From Oceanospirillales bacterium (GTDB lineage: Bacteria; Pseudomonadota; Gammaproteobacteria; Pseudomonadales; Balneatricaceae), in NCBI GenBank assembly GCA_018223185.1, contig JAAEYW010000001.1, positions 124,001 through 188,000 of the forward strand: a stretch of 64,000 nt of DNA. Reading direction: 5' to 3'. Shown piece after piece: positions 26,197 to 32,964 of this stretch. The translations under genes were made by a program, and so were the position numbers. The notes beneath the pieces were generated by a model. That model was not told the origin of the DNA. It saw nothing but the letters and a program-made list of their open reading frames with translations, and did not search any database. The stretch's first letter is position 1, and the number at the start of each line of letters is the position of its first letter.

Positions 26197-26226
26197 TCTA
26201 TACGTGGTTTTTTCAGAAAAGGATCA
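26197..26226 (-). promoter_or_regulatory. Predicted ChrR-sigma promoter of the CFA-like operon
   Basis: On the minus strand TGATCC (26226-26221), 16 bases, then CGTATAGA (26204-26197). It matches the same TGATCY-N16/17-CGTA pattern as the boxes at 19062, 26281 and 30502. It lies about 85 bases before the chosen start of the oxidoreductase gene. Confidence 0.75.
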
Positions 26227-26317: not shown

Positions 26318-26923
26318 ATGAAGAACAGACCACCGGGAGAAGATGTGGACAACATCGTACAACTGAATCAGGCCGAAATGGCCAGCTCTGACTGGAGCGA
26401 TCTGTTGGGCAGTCTGGCTGTAAAGCCTGATAAGCATATCTATGCCCGGTTGTTTAATCATTTTGCGCCCAAGGTTAAGGCCTACATTGTACGGCTGGGC
26501 GTTGCTCTGTCTGCGGCTGAAGAGCTGACTCAGGAAGTGATGTTGTCAGTGTGGCGCAAAGCGCACATGTACCATCCGGAGAAAGCTGCGGCGAGTACCT
26601 GGATCTTTACACTGGCACGAAATCAGAGCATTGACTGGATGCGCAAACAGAAGTATCCCCAGTACAGTCTCGATGAGTGGAGTGAAACGGCTTCGGAATC
26701 GGGGCAGGGAGAGCAGGAAGTATTATCAGACCGGGTAGCCCGTGCGATCAGCCAGCTACCCGAAAAACAGTCACAGGTCATCTATATGTCTTATTTCGAA
26801 GGGCGATCACATGGAGATATCGCCAGCCGTCTCGATATCCCACTGGGCAGTGTTAAATCCAGAATCCGTCTGGCTTCAGAAAAACTGAAACAGATCTGGG
26901 GAGGTGAGGAGTATGAATATTAA
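26318..26923 (+). CDS. ECF sigma factor, ChrR-partnered (RpoE/ECF11 type)
   Basis: 201-residue extracytoplasmic-function sigma factor. Region 2 (LFNHFAPKVKAYIVRLG ... EELTQEVMLSVWRKAHMYHPEKAAASTWIFTLARNQSIDW) and region 4 (ISQLPEKQSQVIYMSYFEGRSHGDIASRLDIPLGSVKSRIRLA) are complete. It pairs with the adjacent ChrR anti-sigma factor, as in the singlet-oxygen response of Rhodobacter sphaeroides. The ATG at 26318 has a perfect AGGAGG, but the predicted promoter would start transcription at about 26317. The ATG at 26378 (MASSDWSDLL) gives an N-terminus closer to RpoE proteins I recall. It overlaps chrR by 11 bases. Confidence 0.9.
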   Translation: MKNRPPGEDVDNIVQLNQAEMASSDWSDLLGSLAVKPDKHIYARLFNHFAPKVKAYIVRLGVALSAAEELTQEVMLSVWRKAHMYHPEKAAASTWIFTLARNQSIDWMRKQKYPQYSLDEWSETASESGQGEQEVLSDRVARAISQLPEKQSQVIYMSYFEGRSHGDIASRLDIPLGSVKSRIRLASEKLKQIWGGEEYEY

Positions 26924-27572
26924 TCATCACCTCGATGATGCAACACTGGTGAGCTATTCTGCCGGAGCGTTGTCTCAGGGTATGGCGCTGGTAGTGGCAT
27001 CCCATCTGTCAGTGTGTCCTCAGTGCCGTCAACGGGCTGAGATTAATGATGCGGTGGGCGGTGTATTGCTTGAATCGCTGGAATCCGAAACGGTTTCCGA
27101 CGATATGCTGGCATCTATACTAACGCAGCTGGATGACCTGCCGGCTGAGACGCATTCAGCGGTATCTGGCTTAACTCGGAAAACCATTGATCCTGAGATA
27201 CCCGCTCCGTTGAGAGAGTATATCGATTGCTCTCTTGATCAGCTGGAATGGAAGCGGATCGTCCCCGGCGTGACCTATTATGATATGCCGTGGGAAGGCC
27301 GTGGGGTTTCCCGTCTGCTGAGAATTGCACCGGGTAAGGCGATGCTGGCTCATACCCATAATGGTAACGAGCTGACCATGGTGCTGCGCGGTTCTTTTTC
27401 CGATGAGGTTGGACATTTTCGCCGGGGCGATGTGGCTGATCTTGATGATCAGATTGAGCACCAACCGCTGGTGGACAGCGAAGTAGACTGTATCTGCCTG
27501 ATCGCAACTGATGCGCCGCTCAGGTTTACCACGCTGTTTGGTAAGCTGGTGCAGCCGATTACTGGTTTCTGA
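26913..27572 (+). CDS. chrR: ChrR-type zinc/cupin anti-sigma factor
   Basis: About 219 residues. The N-terminal anti-sigma domain binds zinc through the HxxxCxxC motif seen in ASHLSVCPQC plus an earlier histidine. The C-terminal domain is a cupin (about residues 120-210; APGKAMLAHTHNGNELTMVLRGSF, FRRGDVADLDDQIEHQPLV) with a second metal site built from His and Glu. In the known system the cupin half is needed for singlet-oxygen or peroxide-triggered release of the sigma factor. The start at 26913 is preceded by GGAGGTGAGGAG. It is co-translated with the sigma gene. Confidence 0.92.
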   Translation: MNINHHLDDATLVSYSAGALSQGMALVVASHLSVCPQCRQRAEINDAVGGVLLESLESETVSDDMLASILTQLDDLPAETHSAVSGLTRKTIDPEIPAPLREYIDCSLDQLEWKRIVPGVTYYDMPWEGRGVSRLLRIAPGKAMLAHTHNGNELTMVLRGSFSDEVGHFRRGDVADLDDQIEHQPLVDSEVDCICLIATDAPLRFTTLFGKLVQPITGF

Positions 27573-29401: not shown

Positions 29402-30439
29402 TTATACCAGGTTACGAAGTCCGAGGTGGGACGGATAGGGTTCGAGATAGCGCTGTGCACGAATATATTCACTGCCATTCTGGTTGATATAGTGTGACAG
29501 CAGAGTCATCGGGGTTATCAGGTTTACCTCGCCCAGCCGGTATTGTTCGAATACGCTGAGAATGTGCTGGCGGGCTGTGCTGTCAACACTCTGTTTCAGG
29601 TAGCCCATAATATGTTGCATCACATTACAGTGAGAGCCGCGGGAGGCCGGGGTGTTAATGGCGGACATAAACTGCTGATGATAGGTTTTGATCAGGGCGT
29701 CTAAAGGTTCTTTGTGCGCCACCGCCAGCATCTTGCCCAGTTCCCGGTAGGCAGTCTGATTGTGCGCCATTAAAAGGTACTTATAGCTGCTGTGAAATTG
29801 CAGCAGGTTGTGAAAACTGGCCTGTCCGGCCACTTCTGTGCGGAAATTGTGGTGCGCAAACACCCGCATAACGAAGTTTTCTCTTAACTGTGCATCGTTG
29901 AGTCTGCCATCCTCCTCGATGGGAAGGTTTGGGAAACGTTCCATCAGTGCACGGGCAAACAGGCCAGCCCCTCGCTCTTCGTGGGGATGGCCGGATGGCT
30001 GATAGATTTTTACCCGTTCCATACCACAGCTGGGGGAGTCTTTCTTCAGGATAAATCCATCCAGCTGCTCGCATCGGTTCAGCATTGGCTGGCATGCATC
30101 GGTCAGTTTTTTTCCGAGATCCTGCATCAGCAGGCTTTCTGAGTCGTTATCTGAATCCTGTTGCTGGTCTTTCTCAGCCTGTTCCTGAGATTTCTCAGAA
30201 GGGGGTCTCGAAAAAATCAGTTTGGGATTGGCCGGATCGCCGGTAAGACGCATGGTGGGCCTGGGTATGCCGAACCCTGCGGCCACTTCCGGACAAAATG
30301 ACTGAAACTTGAAATGCTTTGCCAGTTGGTTCTGGCAGATTCTGGACTGGCTGTGGCCGCCGTTAAAGCGAACCTCTTCACCCAGAACGCATGCACTGAT
30401 ACCGACAGGAATATCGGTTGTTTCGGATATCCGGTTCAT
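29402..30439 (-). CDS. DUF523-DUF1722 fusion protein (YbgA-like)
   Basis: 345 residues. An N-terminal DUF523 domain (PVGISACVLGEEVRFNGGH ... CPEVAAGFGIPRPTMRL ... DGFILKKDSPSCGMERVKIY) has four conserved cysteines able to hold an iron-sulfur cluster. A C-terminal DUF1722 domain (about residues 205-330) follows. Biochemical function has been uncertain; the gene commonly precedes a photolyase gene. DUF523 is interrupted by a low-complexity acidic linker of about 25 residues (SEKSQEQAEKDQQQDSDNDS) near residue 85. First gene of the operon with phrB. Confidence 0.88.
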   Translation of the reverse strand: MNRISETTDIPVGISACVLGEEVRFNGGHSQSRICQNQLAKHFKFQSFCPEVAAGFGIPRPTMRLTGDPANPKLIFSRPPSEKSQEQAEKDQQQDSDNDSESLLMQDLGKKLTDACQPMLNRCEQLDGFILKKDSPSCGMERVKIYQPSGHPHEERGAGLFARALMERFPNLPIEEDGRLNDAQLRENFVMRVFAHHNFRTEVAGQASFHNLLQFHSSYKYLLMAHNQTAYRELGKMLAVAHKEPLDALIKTYHQQFMSAINTPASRGSHCNVMQHIMGYLKQSVDSTARQHILSVFEQYRLGEVNLITPMTLLSHYINQNGSEYIRAQRYLEPYPSHLGLRNLV

Positions 30440-30472
30440 TCGTAATCCTTCTTTGATCGGCTTATATAAACT

Positions 30473-30502
30473 TTAATACGTAATCAGCTTAGCAATAGAT
30501 CA
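30473..30502 (-). promoter_or_regulatory. Predicted ChrR-sigma promoter of the DUF523-phrB operon
   Basis: On the minus strand TGATCT (30502-30497), 16 bases, then CGTATTAA (30480-30473). It is the fourth copy of the TGATCY-N16/17-CGTA pattern, about 34 bases before the start codon. Confidence 0.68.
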
Positions 30503-30561
30503 GCATCGCAAGAATAAATAATAGTTGCCCGACGATGGCTAAAAAACACACAAGAAAATTC

Positions 30562-30589
30562 TTGACTGTTTTAGTTGGTTATATATAAT
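30562..30589 (+). promoter_or_regulatory. Sigma-70 promoter of the putative small RNA
   Basis: TTGACT (30562-30567) and a perfect TATAAT (30584-30589) are separated by 16 bases. Transcription would start near 30595-30596 on the plus strand. No plus-strand protein gene follows before the terminator at 30744-30772. Confidence 0.7.
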
Positions 30590-30595
30590 TACCCA

Positions 30596-30772
30596 GTAAT
30601 TGACTCGGGTATTAATGGTTTGTATTGACTATCTGCTCTCTCTCACTCAGATATGATCTACAGAACAGCGTTTTTCCGATGATGTTCAACTGCTGTGGCC
30701 AATTTATTTGTCCGGCCAGTCCGGATTTAATTGTCCTCTTTGAAGCCGCTGTGTAAACAGCGGCTTTTTTTT
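30596..30772 (+). ncRNA. Putative ~177-nt small RNA, family not recognised
   Basis: A strong promoter (30562-30589) and a strong intrinsic terminator (30744-30772) define a free-standing unit of about 177 nt in the 383-bp gap between the DUF523 gene and pta. Inside, GAACAGC (about 30661) can pair with GCTGT (about 30694). A GC-rich segment with repeated GTCCGG and GGCC follows at about 30699-30725, then a single-stranded-looking TTAATTGTCCTCTTTG before the terminator. It does not match my memory of 6S, tmRNA, Spot 42, GcvB, RyhB or CsrB. One 13-codon frame (ATG at 30615, MVCIDYLLSLTQI) lacks a good ribosome-binding site. Confidence 0.6.
30744..30772 (+). terminator. Terminator of the putative small RNA
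   Basis: A 9-bp perfect stem AGCCGCTGT (30744-30752) / ACAGCGGCT (30757-30765) with a GTAA tetraloop is followed by eight T. The minus strand lacks a T-run on the other side, so it serves plus-strand transcripts, not pta. Confidence 0.92.
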
Positions 30773-30822
30773 ATCTGAATGGGGCTTCGCTGACCGATCT
30801 GACGGTTAATCTTAACCCTTAA

Positions 30823-32964
30823 TCAACCGTTTTCCGTAGCACCTGCCTGGATGGCTGTGAGCGCGATAGTGAATACAATATCGTCTACCAGTGCACCTCT
30901 GGACAGATCATTTACCGGTTTTCGCATCCCTTGCAGCATTGGACCGATGCTGATGACATCGGCACTGCGTTGTACTGCTTTGTAAGTGGTATTGCCGGTG
31001 TTGAGATCGGGGAAGATAAAGACCGTTGCCTGACCGGCAACCGTGCTGTCCGGGGCTTTTGACCGGGCGACGCTTTCCATCACCGCGGCATCATATTGCA
31101 GCGGGCCGTCAATCAGCAGGTCCGGGCGTTTTTCCCGCGCGATACGGGTCGCTTGCCGGACTTTTTCAACATCGGCCCCCTGACCTGAGCCGCCGGTAGA
31201 GTAGCTTATCATTGCCACGCGGGGAGGGATGCCAAACGCGATGGCTGACTCTGCCGACTGGATCGCAATATCCGCCAGCTGCTCTGCGTTGGGATCAGGG
31301 TTTATAGCGCAGTCACCATAGATCAGCACTTGTTCCGGAAGACACATAAAGAAGATCGAAGACACCAGATTACAACCGGGAGCGGTTTTGATCAGCTGCA
31401 TTGGCGGCCGGATAGTGTTCGCGGTAGTGTGCTCTGCGCCGCTGACCAGGCCGTCGACATGGCCCATCTCCAGCATCAGCGTTCCCAGTACGACATTATC
31501 CTGCAGCTGTTCTTCGGCGATAATCTCCGTCATCCCTTTATGTTGTCGCAGTTCAACCAGACGATTGATATAGTCATTACGGATCAGTTGCGGATCACTG
31601 ATGGTGACATTGTCATTCAGTATCACCCCCTGGTTTTTGGCGATCTGAATGATCTCTTTGGTGTTGCCCAGCAGAACGCAACGGGCGATCCCTCTTTCTG
31701 CACAGATAGCCGCTGCTTTTACGGTGCGGGGTTCATTACCCTCAGGCAGTACGATAACCCTGTTCGCCAGGCGGGCGCGTTTGATCAACTGATAGCGGAA
31801 TGCCGGTGGTGAGAGGCGTCGCTGGTAGTTGTAATCCACCAGAGTTGCAAGCCAGTCATGGTCAATATGGGCCGCTGTCGCTTCTTTAATATCACGAATG
31901 CGCGGCAGATCATCCGCACGGGTTTCCTGATTCAGCTGCGTCATCGCCATCGCGGTTTGCCAGCTATCCAGTGGAATGCTGAGGATCGGCAGCCCCGCCT
32001 CGCAGGCCCCGGCACACAGCTTCAGTACCGCAGCAGAGGGCGTAAACCCGCCGGTTAGTATCAGTGCCGACAGTTCTACACCATTGACCGCTGCCATGCA
32101 GGCTGCAACGATCATATCGTCACGGTCTCCCGGGGTGAAGACCAGCGACCCTGGGCGGAGTTCATTGACAGCATTCGCCACGGTTCTGGCGCACATGGTT
32201 ATTCTGCTGACCCGGCGGGTGGCGATATCACCAGTGTTGATGACGGCTGCATTCAGGTAATCCGCGATATCCTTTACTCTGGGAGTAATCAGGTCCCGGT
32301 TCCATGGAATGCAGCCGAGCAGACGAAACTGGCTATTGAAGATCGTTGCGTGTTCGCGCACGACCTCCTCCGTGAGGCTGTGGGTCACGGTGTTGCCGGT
32401 GCTCAGAAATGGCTGCATATGCCCTTCACGGTTAACCGGGGCGCCCAGCTTACTGAGTATGCAGCCAAGAAGTTGTTTGCTTTTAATGCCGCCATACGCT
32501 CGGGCGGTAATATCGATATGATCCTGCAGGGCTTCAACAGTGTCGTTGCCTGGCGTTGCAACCAGTACCACCTGAGCATCCAGAGCCTTGGCAATCTCCT
32601 TATTAATTCGGGTCGCATAGGGCTGGCTTTCTGTATGTACCATCCCTTCGATAATGACGACTTCATTATCTGCGGGCAGGCTCTGTTCATACCGGGCCAC
32701 AATCTGTTCCAGAACCTGACTGCCTTTATCCTGGCTGACCAGTTGCTCGACATCGCGAATCGCAACCGGTTCTGCAATGGGTGAGCTGCAGTCCCCCTGC
32801 AGCATGGCGATAGTGATATCCGTGCCATTGCCGTTGCCCTGAGCGATCGGTTTAAAGAAGTGAACCTTAATACCCTGGCGGTTCATGGCCTGAAACAGGC
32901 CCAGCACAGCGGTAGTAAGTCCTGCACCCACGCCGGTAGGCGCAAGAAGTAATGCTTGAGACAT
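30823..32964 (-). CDS. pta: Phosphate acetyltransferase (long form)
   Basis: Interconverts acetyl-CoA and acetyl phosphate. It is the 713-residue form with an N-terminal P-loop/BioD-like domain (LLLAPTGVGAGLTTAVLGLF) and a central DRTGG regulatory domain (about 215-330; VFTPGDRDDMIVAA, LTGGFTPSAAV). The C-terminal PTA domain (about 390-710) shows VIVLPEGNEPRTVKAAA, GLVSGAEHTTANTIRPPMQ and SYSTGGSGQGADVEKVR. Acetate kinase (ackA), its usual partner, is not adjacent: more than 800 bases of non-coding DNA lie upstream. It may therefore be co-regulated with ackA elsewhere, or serve another acetyl-phosphate-producing route. Confidence 0.95.
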   Translation of the reverse strand: MSQALLLAPTGVGAGLTTAVLGLFQAMNRQGIKVHFFKPIAQGNGNGTDITIAMLQGDCSSPIAEPVAIRDVEQLVSQDKGSQVLEQIVARYEQSLPADNEVVIIEGMVHTESQPYATRINKEIAKALDAQVVLVATPGNDTVEALQDHIDITARAYGGIKSKQLLGCILSKLGAPVNREGHMQPFLSTGNTVTHSLTEEVVREHATIFNSQFRLLGCIPWNRDLITPRVKDIADYLNAAVINTGDIATRRVSRITMCARTVANAVNELRPGSLVFTPGDRDDMIVAACMAAVNGVELSALILTGGFTPSAAVLKLCAGACEAGLPILSIPLDSWQTAMAMTQLNQETRADDLPRIRDIKEATAAHIDHDWLATLVDYNYQRRLSPPAFRYQLIKRARLANRVIVLPEGNEPRTVKAAAICAERGIARCVLLGNTKEIIQIAKNQGVILNDNVTISDPQLIRNDYINRLVELRQHKGMTEIIAEEQLQDNVVLGTLMLEMGHVDGLVSGAEHTTANTIRPPMQLIKTAPGCNLVSSIFFMCLPEQVLIYGDCAINPDPNAEQLADIAIQSAESAIAFGIPPRVAMISYSTGGSGQGADVEKVRQATRIAREKRPDLLIDGPLQYDAAVMESVARSKAPDSTVAGQATVFIFPDLNTGNTTYKAVQRSADVISIGPMLQGMRKPVNDLSRGALVDDIVFTIALTAIQAGATENG

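Follow-up and report, generated by a model that had tools for sequence, protein, structure and literature searches.

A conserved, very probable free-standing small RNA gene of Amphritea, with ccoN as a possible target

The interval between a DUF523 gene and pta, both on the minus strand of the window (the whole stretch of 64,000 nucleotides that was analysed), contains at 30562-30772 what looks like a complete transcription unit on the plus strand. Does this unit encode a small RNA (sRNA), and if so, on which mRNA might that RNA act? A sequence-only reading had proposed a free-standing sRNA of about 177 nt belonging to no known family. The features on which our answer draws are as follows.

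29402-30439, minus strand: DUF523 gene (2-thiouracil desulfurase and DUF1722 domains)
30562-30589, plus strand: predicted sigma-70-type promoter TTGACT-N16-TATAAT, aligned in 11 loci and present in L092 too
30595-30772, plus strand: predicted small RNA of about 178 nt (12 of 17 Amphritea genomes, conservation profile)
30595-30610, plus strand: conserved 5' block AGTAATTGACTCGGGT (alignment, folds, conservation profile)
30631-30652, plus strand: predicted hairpin AUCUG/CAGAU with C/U-rich loop CUCUCUCUCACU (30636-30647), helix 1
30683-30701, plus strand: most conserved segment UGUUCAACUGCUGUGGCCA, proposed target-pairing (seed) region, with 0.94 mean pairwise identity in 30685-30699
30697-30736, plus strand: predicted second stem GGYCAAUU/AAUUGNCC with an inner stem, helices 2 and 3
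30735-30742, plus strand: pyrimidine-rich stretch 5' of the terminator, a possible Hfq site, conserved in the alignment (Hfq gene in the genome)
30742-30772, plus strand: predicted intrinsic terminator, 11-bp stem and 8-T tail, helix 4 of the consensus structure
30823-32964, minus strand: pta

The promoter boxes (TTGACT 30562-30567, TATAAT 30584-30589) agree with the consensus at 11 of 12 positions, and the site is the best of five promoter-like sites in 29500-31500, where shuffles average 2.0, which confirms the near-consensus promoter of the sequence-only reading. Among relatives, the -10 box varies to TATACT (G010) and TAGAAT (G005) and carries a 2-nt insertion in G009. The position of the -10 box would place the 5' end at about 30595, and the T-run the 3' end at 30772, giving a transcript of about 178 nt, close to the length first proposed; no ORF of at least 60 aa lies between the DUF523 gene and pta. 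The terminator had been described with a GTAA tetraloop: its stem (30742-30767, 11 pairs) and its run of eight T (30765-30772) are conserved, but the loop GTAA, present here, is not kept in relatives. As had been argued from the minus-strand orientation of both flanking genes, the RNA is not a leader, since the next plus-strand gene downstream is called only from 33774. Two marks of Hfq-type sRNAs, an Hfq gene in the genome and a terminator with at least seven U, are found here (eight T in the window, and a T-run conserved in relatives), and the unit stands alone between genes with its own predicted promoter, as a trans-encoded sRNA would. The RNA is probably trans-acting and Hfq-dependent.

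Conservation in close relatives, which the sequence-only reading had named as its own test, was found in the genus that we infer to be Amphritea. A BLAST search with 30540-30800 against 95 genomes, our own included, gave matches in 16, of which 11 reach into the RNA unit (E 2.4e-8 or better) and the other five are short pieces of promoter or terminator. All 11, with our own genome counted, are Amphritea genomes, and G005 is matched over the 3' part only. A covariance model built from these 11 sequences (R1) recovered a twelfth homologue in G007 at 61.7 bits, with promoter, block, and terminator present, so that the unit is found in 12 of 17 Amphritea genomes, with promoter, stems, and terminator conserved. 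Among the rest, all that matches in G001, G002, G003, and G012 is the C-terminal part of pta, at 41-42%, and the fragmented assembly G004 yielded no RNA match and only an N-terminal piece of pta. In the 12-sequence profile, mean pairwise identity reaches 0.94 in the block (30685-30699), against 0.72-0.79 for 30565-30609 and 0.77-0.87 in the terminator, and it is only 0.35-0.59 in the interior segments 30610-30639, 30655-30684, and 30715-30729. Flank identity is 0.26-0.50 upstream (30505-30549) and 0.15-0.26 downstream (30775-30819), conservation ending at the T-run. This drop in identity, together with the retention of the unit in most of the genus, argues against a chance arrangement.

Beyond the genus, no further homologue was recognised when 116 genomes of the family were searched with R1; besides the 12 true matches there were 24 weak ones, and none of the 17 inspected has a promoter plus block. 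G007 itself has a second, weak R1 match at 32.8 bits. A search of the order with model R2 (293 genomes) gave matches at E up to 0.01 in 20 of the 292 other genomes, the best at 39.1 bits, and the best five of these 20 do not contain the promoter-block unit; both covariance searches were run with Infernal's stricter filters. The 15-base block pattern was matched in nine of 390 genomes, one match being our own unit and the other eight falling within open frames 187-619 codons long and lacking a T-run. We rejected the idea of a family-wide RNA with the same seed: the pattern occurs in 83 of 116 family genomes, many of these rows being ccoN on the opposite strand, and none of 10 inspected matches outside ccoN resembles a comparable unit.

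In the consensus fold that RNAalifold predicts from 11 sequences, a hairpin carrying a C/U-rich loop is followed by a second stem and the terminator, and the block stays unpaired ahead of its GG. One pair of helix 1 is changed on both sides among the 11 sequences and two are when G007 is added; for helices 2 and 3 together the counts are four and five. The G007 hairpin has other stem letters and keeps the C/U-rich loop, and in G005 the hairpin is not alignable. Overall, 95.0% of cells are paired and 8 pairs are changed on both sides in the 11 sequences, values of which neither is reached in 500 shuffles, the structure having been derived from the same alignment; controls with partners slid by 1-3 columns are only 27-49% paired. 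With G007 included and the alignment fitted to that structure, the values are 95.3% and 10 pairs, and again none of 500 shuffles is as good, although the kinship of sequences alone can exceed such shuffle controls. The two predicted internal stems and the terminator are thus conserved, with pairing retained through changes on both sides. A stem of GAACAGC with GCTGT, proposed earlier, proved wrong, being kept in relatives neither in the alignment nor in single-sequence folds; the U/C-rich stretch noted ahead of the terminator is borne out as pyrimidine-rich and conserved.

The 5' domain is less regular. CGG in the 5' block may, with moderate support, pair with CCG at 30676-30678 and close a long 5' arm. 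The full 5' stem AGUAAUUGAC/UUCAACUGCU was rejected by eye: five of 12 sequences have AC in place of AG, with no change on the 3' side. G005 could form a similar stem from different letters, UUGAUCAG/CUGAUCAA, which suggests that part of the 5' stem may be real. Against shuffles, the domain alone shows excess stability only in G006 (z -3.48), the other 11 of the 12 sequences ranging from -1.05 to +1.49. When arms were swapped among 10 of the 12 sequences, 56 of 5000 permutations matched the own arms, and the own arm ranked first in only 2 of 10. In single-sequence folds of at least G000, G016, G006, and G014, the conserved block pairs with the RNA's own 5' end; such pairing would compete with a target and speaks against easy access to the block, whose GG and CA at the 3' end are also shared with the second stem.

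What might the block, which reads UUCAACUGCUGUGGYCA, pair with? Its complement, searched with up to 3 mismatches in nine genomes, gave 63 matches, eight of them the RNA gene itself, against 8 for a backward control, a ratio that is not a test because the control differs in composition. In all nine genomes ccoN, encoding cbb3 oxidase subunit I, was matched directly after ATGA. Among the 47 of 55 non-self matches that were inspected (40 fetched plus seven ccoN, leaving out four in G006 and four in G008), ccoN is, under a crude ORF rule, the only gene whose start was matched in two or more genomes. The 40 fetched matches include two to ccoN, the other seven ccoN matches lying outside them, and two further ones just upstream of a start with no longer frame opposite (L177, L206), in unrelated genes. 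A match common to G014 and G008 (L202, L212) falls within a single gene, 79-139 nt past the first start that could be assigned, and is therefore not counted as a start.

In each of the 11 genomes having both partners, the own sRNA is predicted to pair with the own ccoN at -22.6 to -33.4 kcal/mol, with at least 16 pairs over ccoN +2 to +20 (start and codons 2-7); ccoN was not found in the G013 assembly. The variation in the block is compatible with this duplex: a 1-nt deletion in G008 would remove a mismatched A, G015 extends the duplex, and a C to U change in G013 could wobble with G. The duplex has internal G.G and A.C mismatches, which are conserved as well. Among 699 start regions drawn by crude start rules from 864 kb (18.8% of the genome), to which the ccoN stretch was added on purpose, ccoN comes third when only hybrid energy is considered and first when target-opening energy is added, a measure that counts the opening of the target but not that of the sRNA. 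Averaged over 10 linker variants, it ranks fourth by hybrid energy and first after the top 60 were re-ranked with opening. An initial trial on 83 start regions had placed one of them ahead of ccoN when the linker was used, 24 when the loop was used, and 59 when the RNA was taken in full. Dinucleotide-shuffled 18-mers match a start region 0.019 times per 699, which, scaled to some 4,000 genes, would amount to about 0.1 chance seed matches at starts per genome. It is worth noting that codon 3 of ccoN is ACT and not ACA in all four Amphritea genomes without the RNA, whereas G004, where the status of the RNA is undecided, has ACA; the G000 linker pairs with ACT-type ccoN at -18.4 vs -23.0, and ACT may represent a single change in one clade.

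If these predictions hold, the block UGUUCA-A-CUGCUGUG-G-YCA would pair with ccoN mRNA at +2 to +20, the duplex would stop ribosome binding, and less of the cbb3-type high-affinity oxidase would be made. The C/U-rich loop could in addition bind the GAGAG Shine-Dalgarno of ccoN mRNA, a pairing of ordinary strength and in crossed order relative to that of the block. We regard ccoN as a main target only tentatively, on the grounds of where the predicted duplex lies, how accessible the target is, and how well the limits of the block fit the duplex.

The ccoN start (L215-L227, L232, L245-L264) also appears to be an element of its own. From -40 to +60 it is 100% identical in the 11 RNA-bearing Amphritea genomes, silent sites included; codon identity at the start is still 0.98 when three genomes without the RNA are added, is 0.55-0.85 farther inside the gene, and the start is similar across much of the family. 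Conservation in genomes without the RNA means that the RNA is not its cause, and the matches in nine of nine genomes are nearer one observation than nine. The identity at silent sites points to an RNA-level constraint on the ccoN start itself. A broader view, in which a genus-specific sRNA evolved to control cbb3 oxidase through this ultraconserved start, itself an RNA-level control element that much of the family would share and to which different genera would apply different regulators, is on balance rather unlikely.

The RNA may equally be a trans-acting sRNA that matches ccoN by chance and finds its real targets among other mRNAs through the block, the C/U-rich loop, or the 5' end, a reading we consider a serious possibility, somewhat short of probable. 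The energy of the ccoN duplex is unexceptional, 82% of 150 shuffled linkers having as many start regions at such energies; 5' end, loop, and block are all conserved, the start-region scan covered less than a fifth of the genome, and stronger hybrids exist in the own genome. One is with cysB (L298 17845-18819, minus strand), where about 13 contiguous pairs with the block fall at the first codons because these read CTG CAG CAG TTG, and in G000 this hybrid is stronger than that with ccoN. However, the cysB pairing is inconstant, its energy in 11 genomes lying anywhere between -16.6 and -32.2 kcal/mol, and cysB was rejected as a conserved target since the pairing is not kept in all relatives, whereas ccoN is the only start-region match found in all nine genomes among the matches inspected.

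Other explanations concern the nature of the unit. A short mRNA or dual-function RNA, with the block encoding a micropeptide that contains FNCCGQ, is improbable: the frame Phe-Asn-Cys-Cys-Gly-Gln (30682-30702, plus strand) is open in 11 of 12 sequences, all changes in those 11 are silent (TTC/TTT, GGC/GGT, CAA/CAG), and an in-frame ATG, GTG, or TTG lies upstream, but G008 has a frame-shifting deletion, the tail after FNCCGQ has no common length or sequence, no properly spaced Shine-Dalgarno was seen by eye, and RNA pairing could explain the same silent changes. We give little credence to the idea that the RNA acts in cis, as an antisense RNA to the 3' end of pta, and not in trans. In 11 of 12 loci the RNA and pta converge, and in nine of these the pta stop codon is 24-50 nt away, yet the terminator of the RNA lies ahead of that stop codon, the gap grows to 287 nt in G005 and to 748 nt with an intervening ORF in G007, and G006 has no pta in roughly 5 kb on either side. 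The DUF523 start lies less than 1.5 kb from the RNA in 10 of 12 loci, about 2.4 kb away in G010, and the gene was not found in the G007 genome. With no pta near the RNA in G006 and DUF523 distant in G010 and not found in G007, the RNA is tied to neither gene, and its divergent start from the DUF523-phrB operon, which had been remarked on, is incidental. An untranscribed unit conserved as protein-binding DNA is the most remote of these readings, given the RNA hallmarks of helix changes on both sides, retained loop make-up, and a terminator with a T-run. The free-standing sRNA gene proposed at the outset is supported: the locus very probably represents an uncatalogued, genus-level sRNA gene of Amphritea, and this gene with ccoN as a main target, taken together, makes a plausible proposal that falls a little below even chances.

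Near this locus, a TGATCY-N16-CGTA site lies upstream of DUF523-phrB (30477-30502, minus strand) and is visible in several relatives; another lies upstream of amine oxidase/cyclopropane synthase genes (26201-26226, minus strand), and genes for an ECF-type sigma factor and a ChrR-cupin protein (26318-27572, plus strand) adjoin such a site. The window has three matches vs 0.92 expected, and 6 of 100 shuffles reach three. Together with the sigma and ChrR genes, the sites resemble what we take to be an ECF11/RpoE-ChrR singlet-oxygen regulon.

Few sRNA studies of Oceanospirillales-type marine bacteria came up in the literature searched, one of them on Alcanivorax (PMC9788540). The term small RNA is absent from the Amphritea literature searched, and the available portions of the mostly open-access papers searched, including PMC8632094 and PMC8307010, contain no description of the Amphritea RNA or of any sRNA acting on ccoN. 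For the RNA described here there are a structure, an alignment that is conserved, and a single, specific candidate target; if that target is true, the high-affinity oxidase would be regulated by an RNA. A further lead, valid whether or not the RNA acts there, is the ccoN start with its 60 nt of identity at silent sites.

Among known families, none of 4227 in Rfam matched the window at its gathering score, in line with the earlier assignment to no known family. All 14 listed matches fall below that score, and PinT, FnrS, BjrC1505, and the other families were rejected. PinT (RF01404), with a gathering score of 60, reaches 24.3 bits over only 50 nt (30718-30767), where the pre-terminator and terminator letters are partly similar to those of the Amphritea RNA. 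FnrS (RF01796) reaches 22.2 bits, also against 60, with a matched part of similar length, a terminator similar in letters, and, if the ccoN target is right, a shared tie to oxygen-dependent metabolism. RybB is an Hfq-dependent trans-encoded sRNA that pairs at the start codon or first codons. Like RybB-type sRNAs, the Amphritea RNA has its own predicted promoter, a conserved block, a terminator with a long U tail, an Hfq gene in the genome, and predicted pairing at +2 to +20; unlike them, its block lies in the middle of the RNA and not at the 5' end, and no Rfam model matches it at the gathering score. OxyS-fhlA represents the two-site pairing type, and here too the loop could meet the Shine-Dalgarno and a second site would lie in the coding part, but the sites of the Amphritea RNA would be in crossed order, which makes simultaneous pairing doubtful. 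Finally, the HRC-8-4 motif of Rhodobacterales lies mostly between ccoNOQP and ccoGHIS (PMC8632094). By contrast, the Amphritea sRNA and ccoN are on separate contigs (C41 and C20); the likeness is that of an RNA motif linked with cbb3 oxidase genes (PMC8632094).
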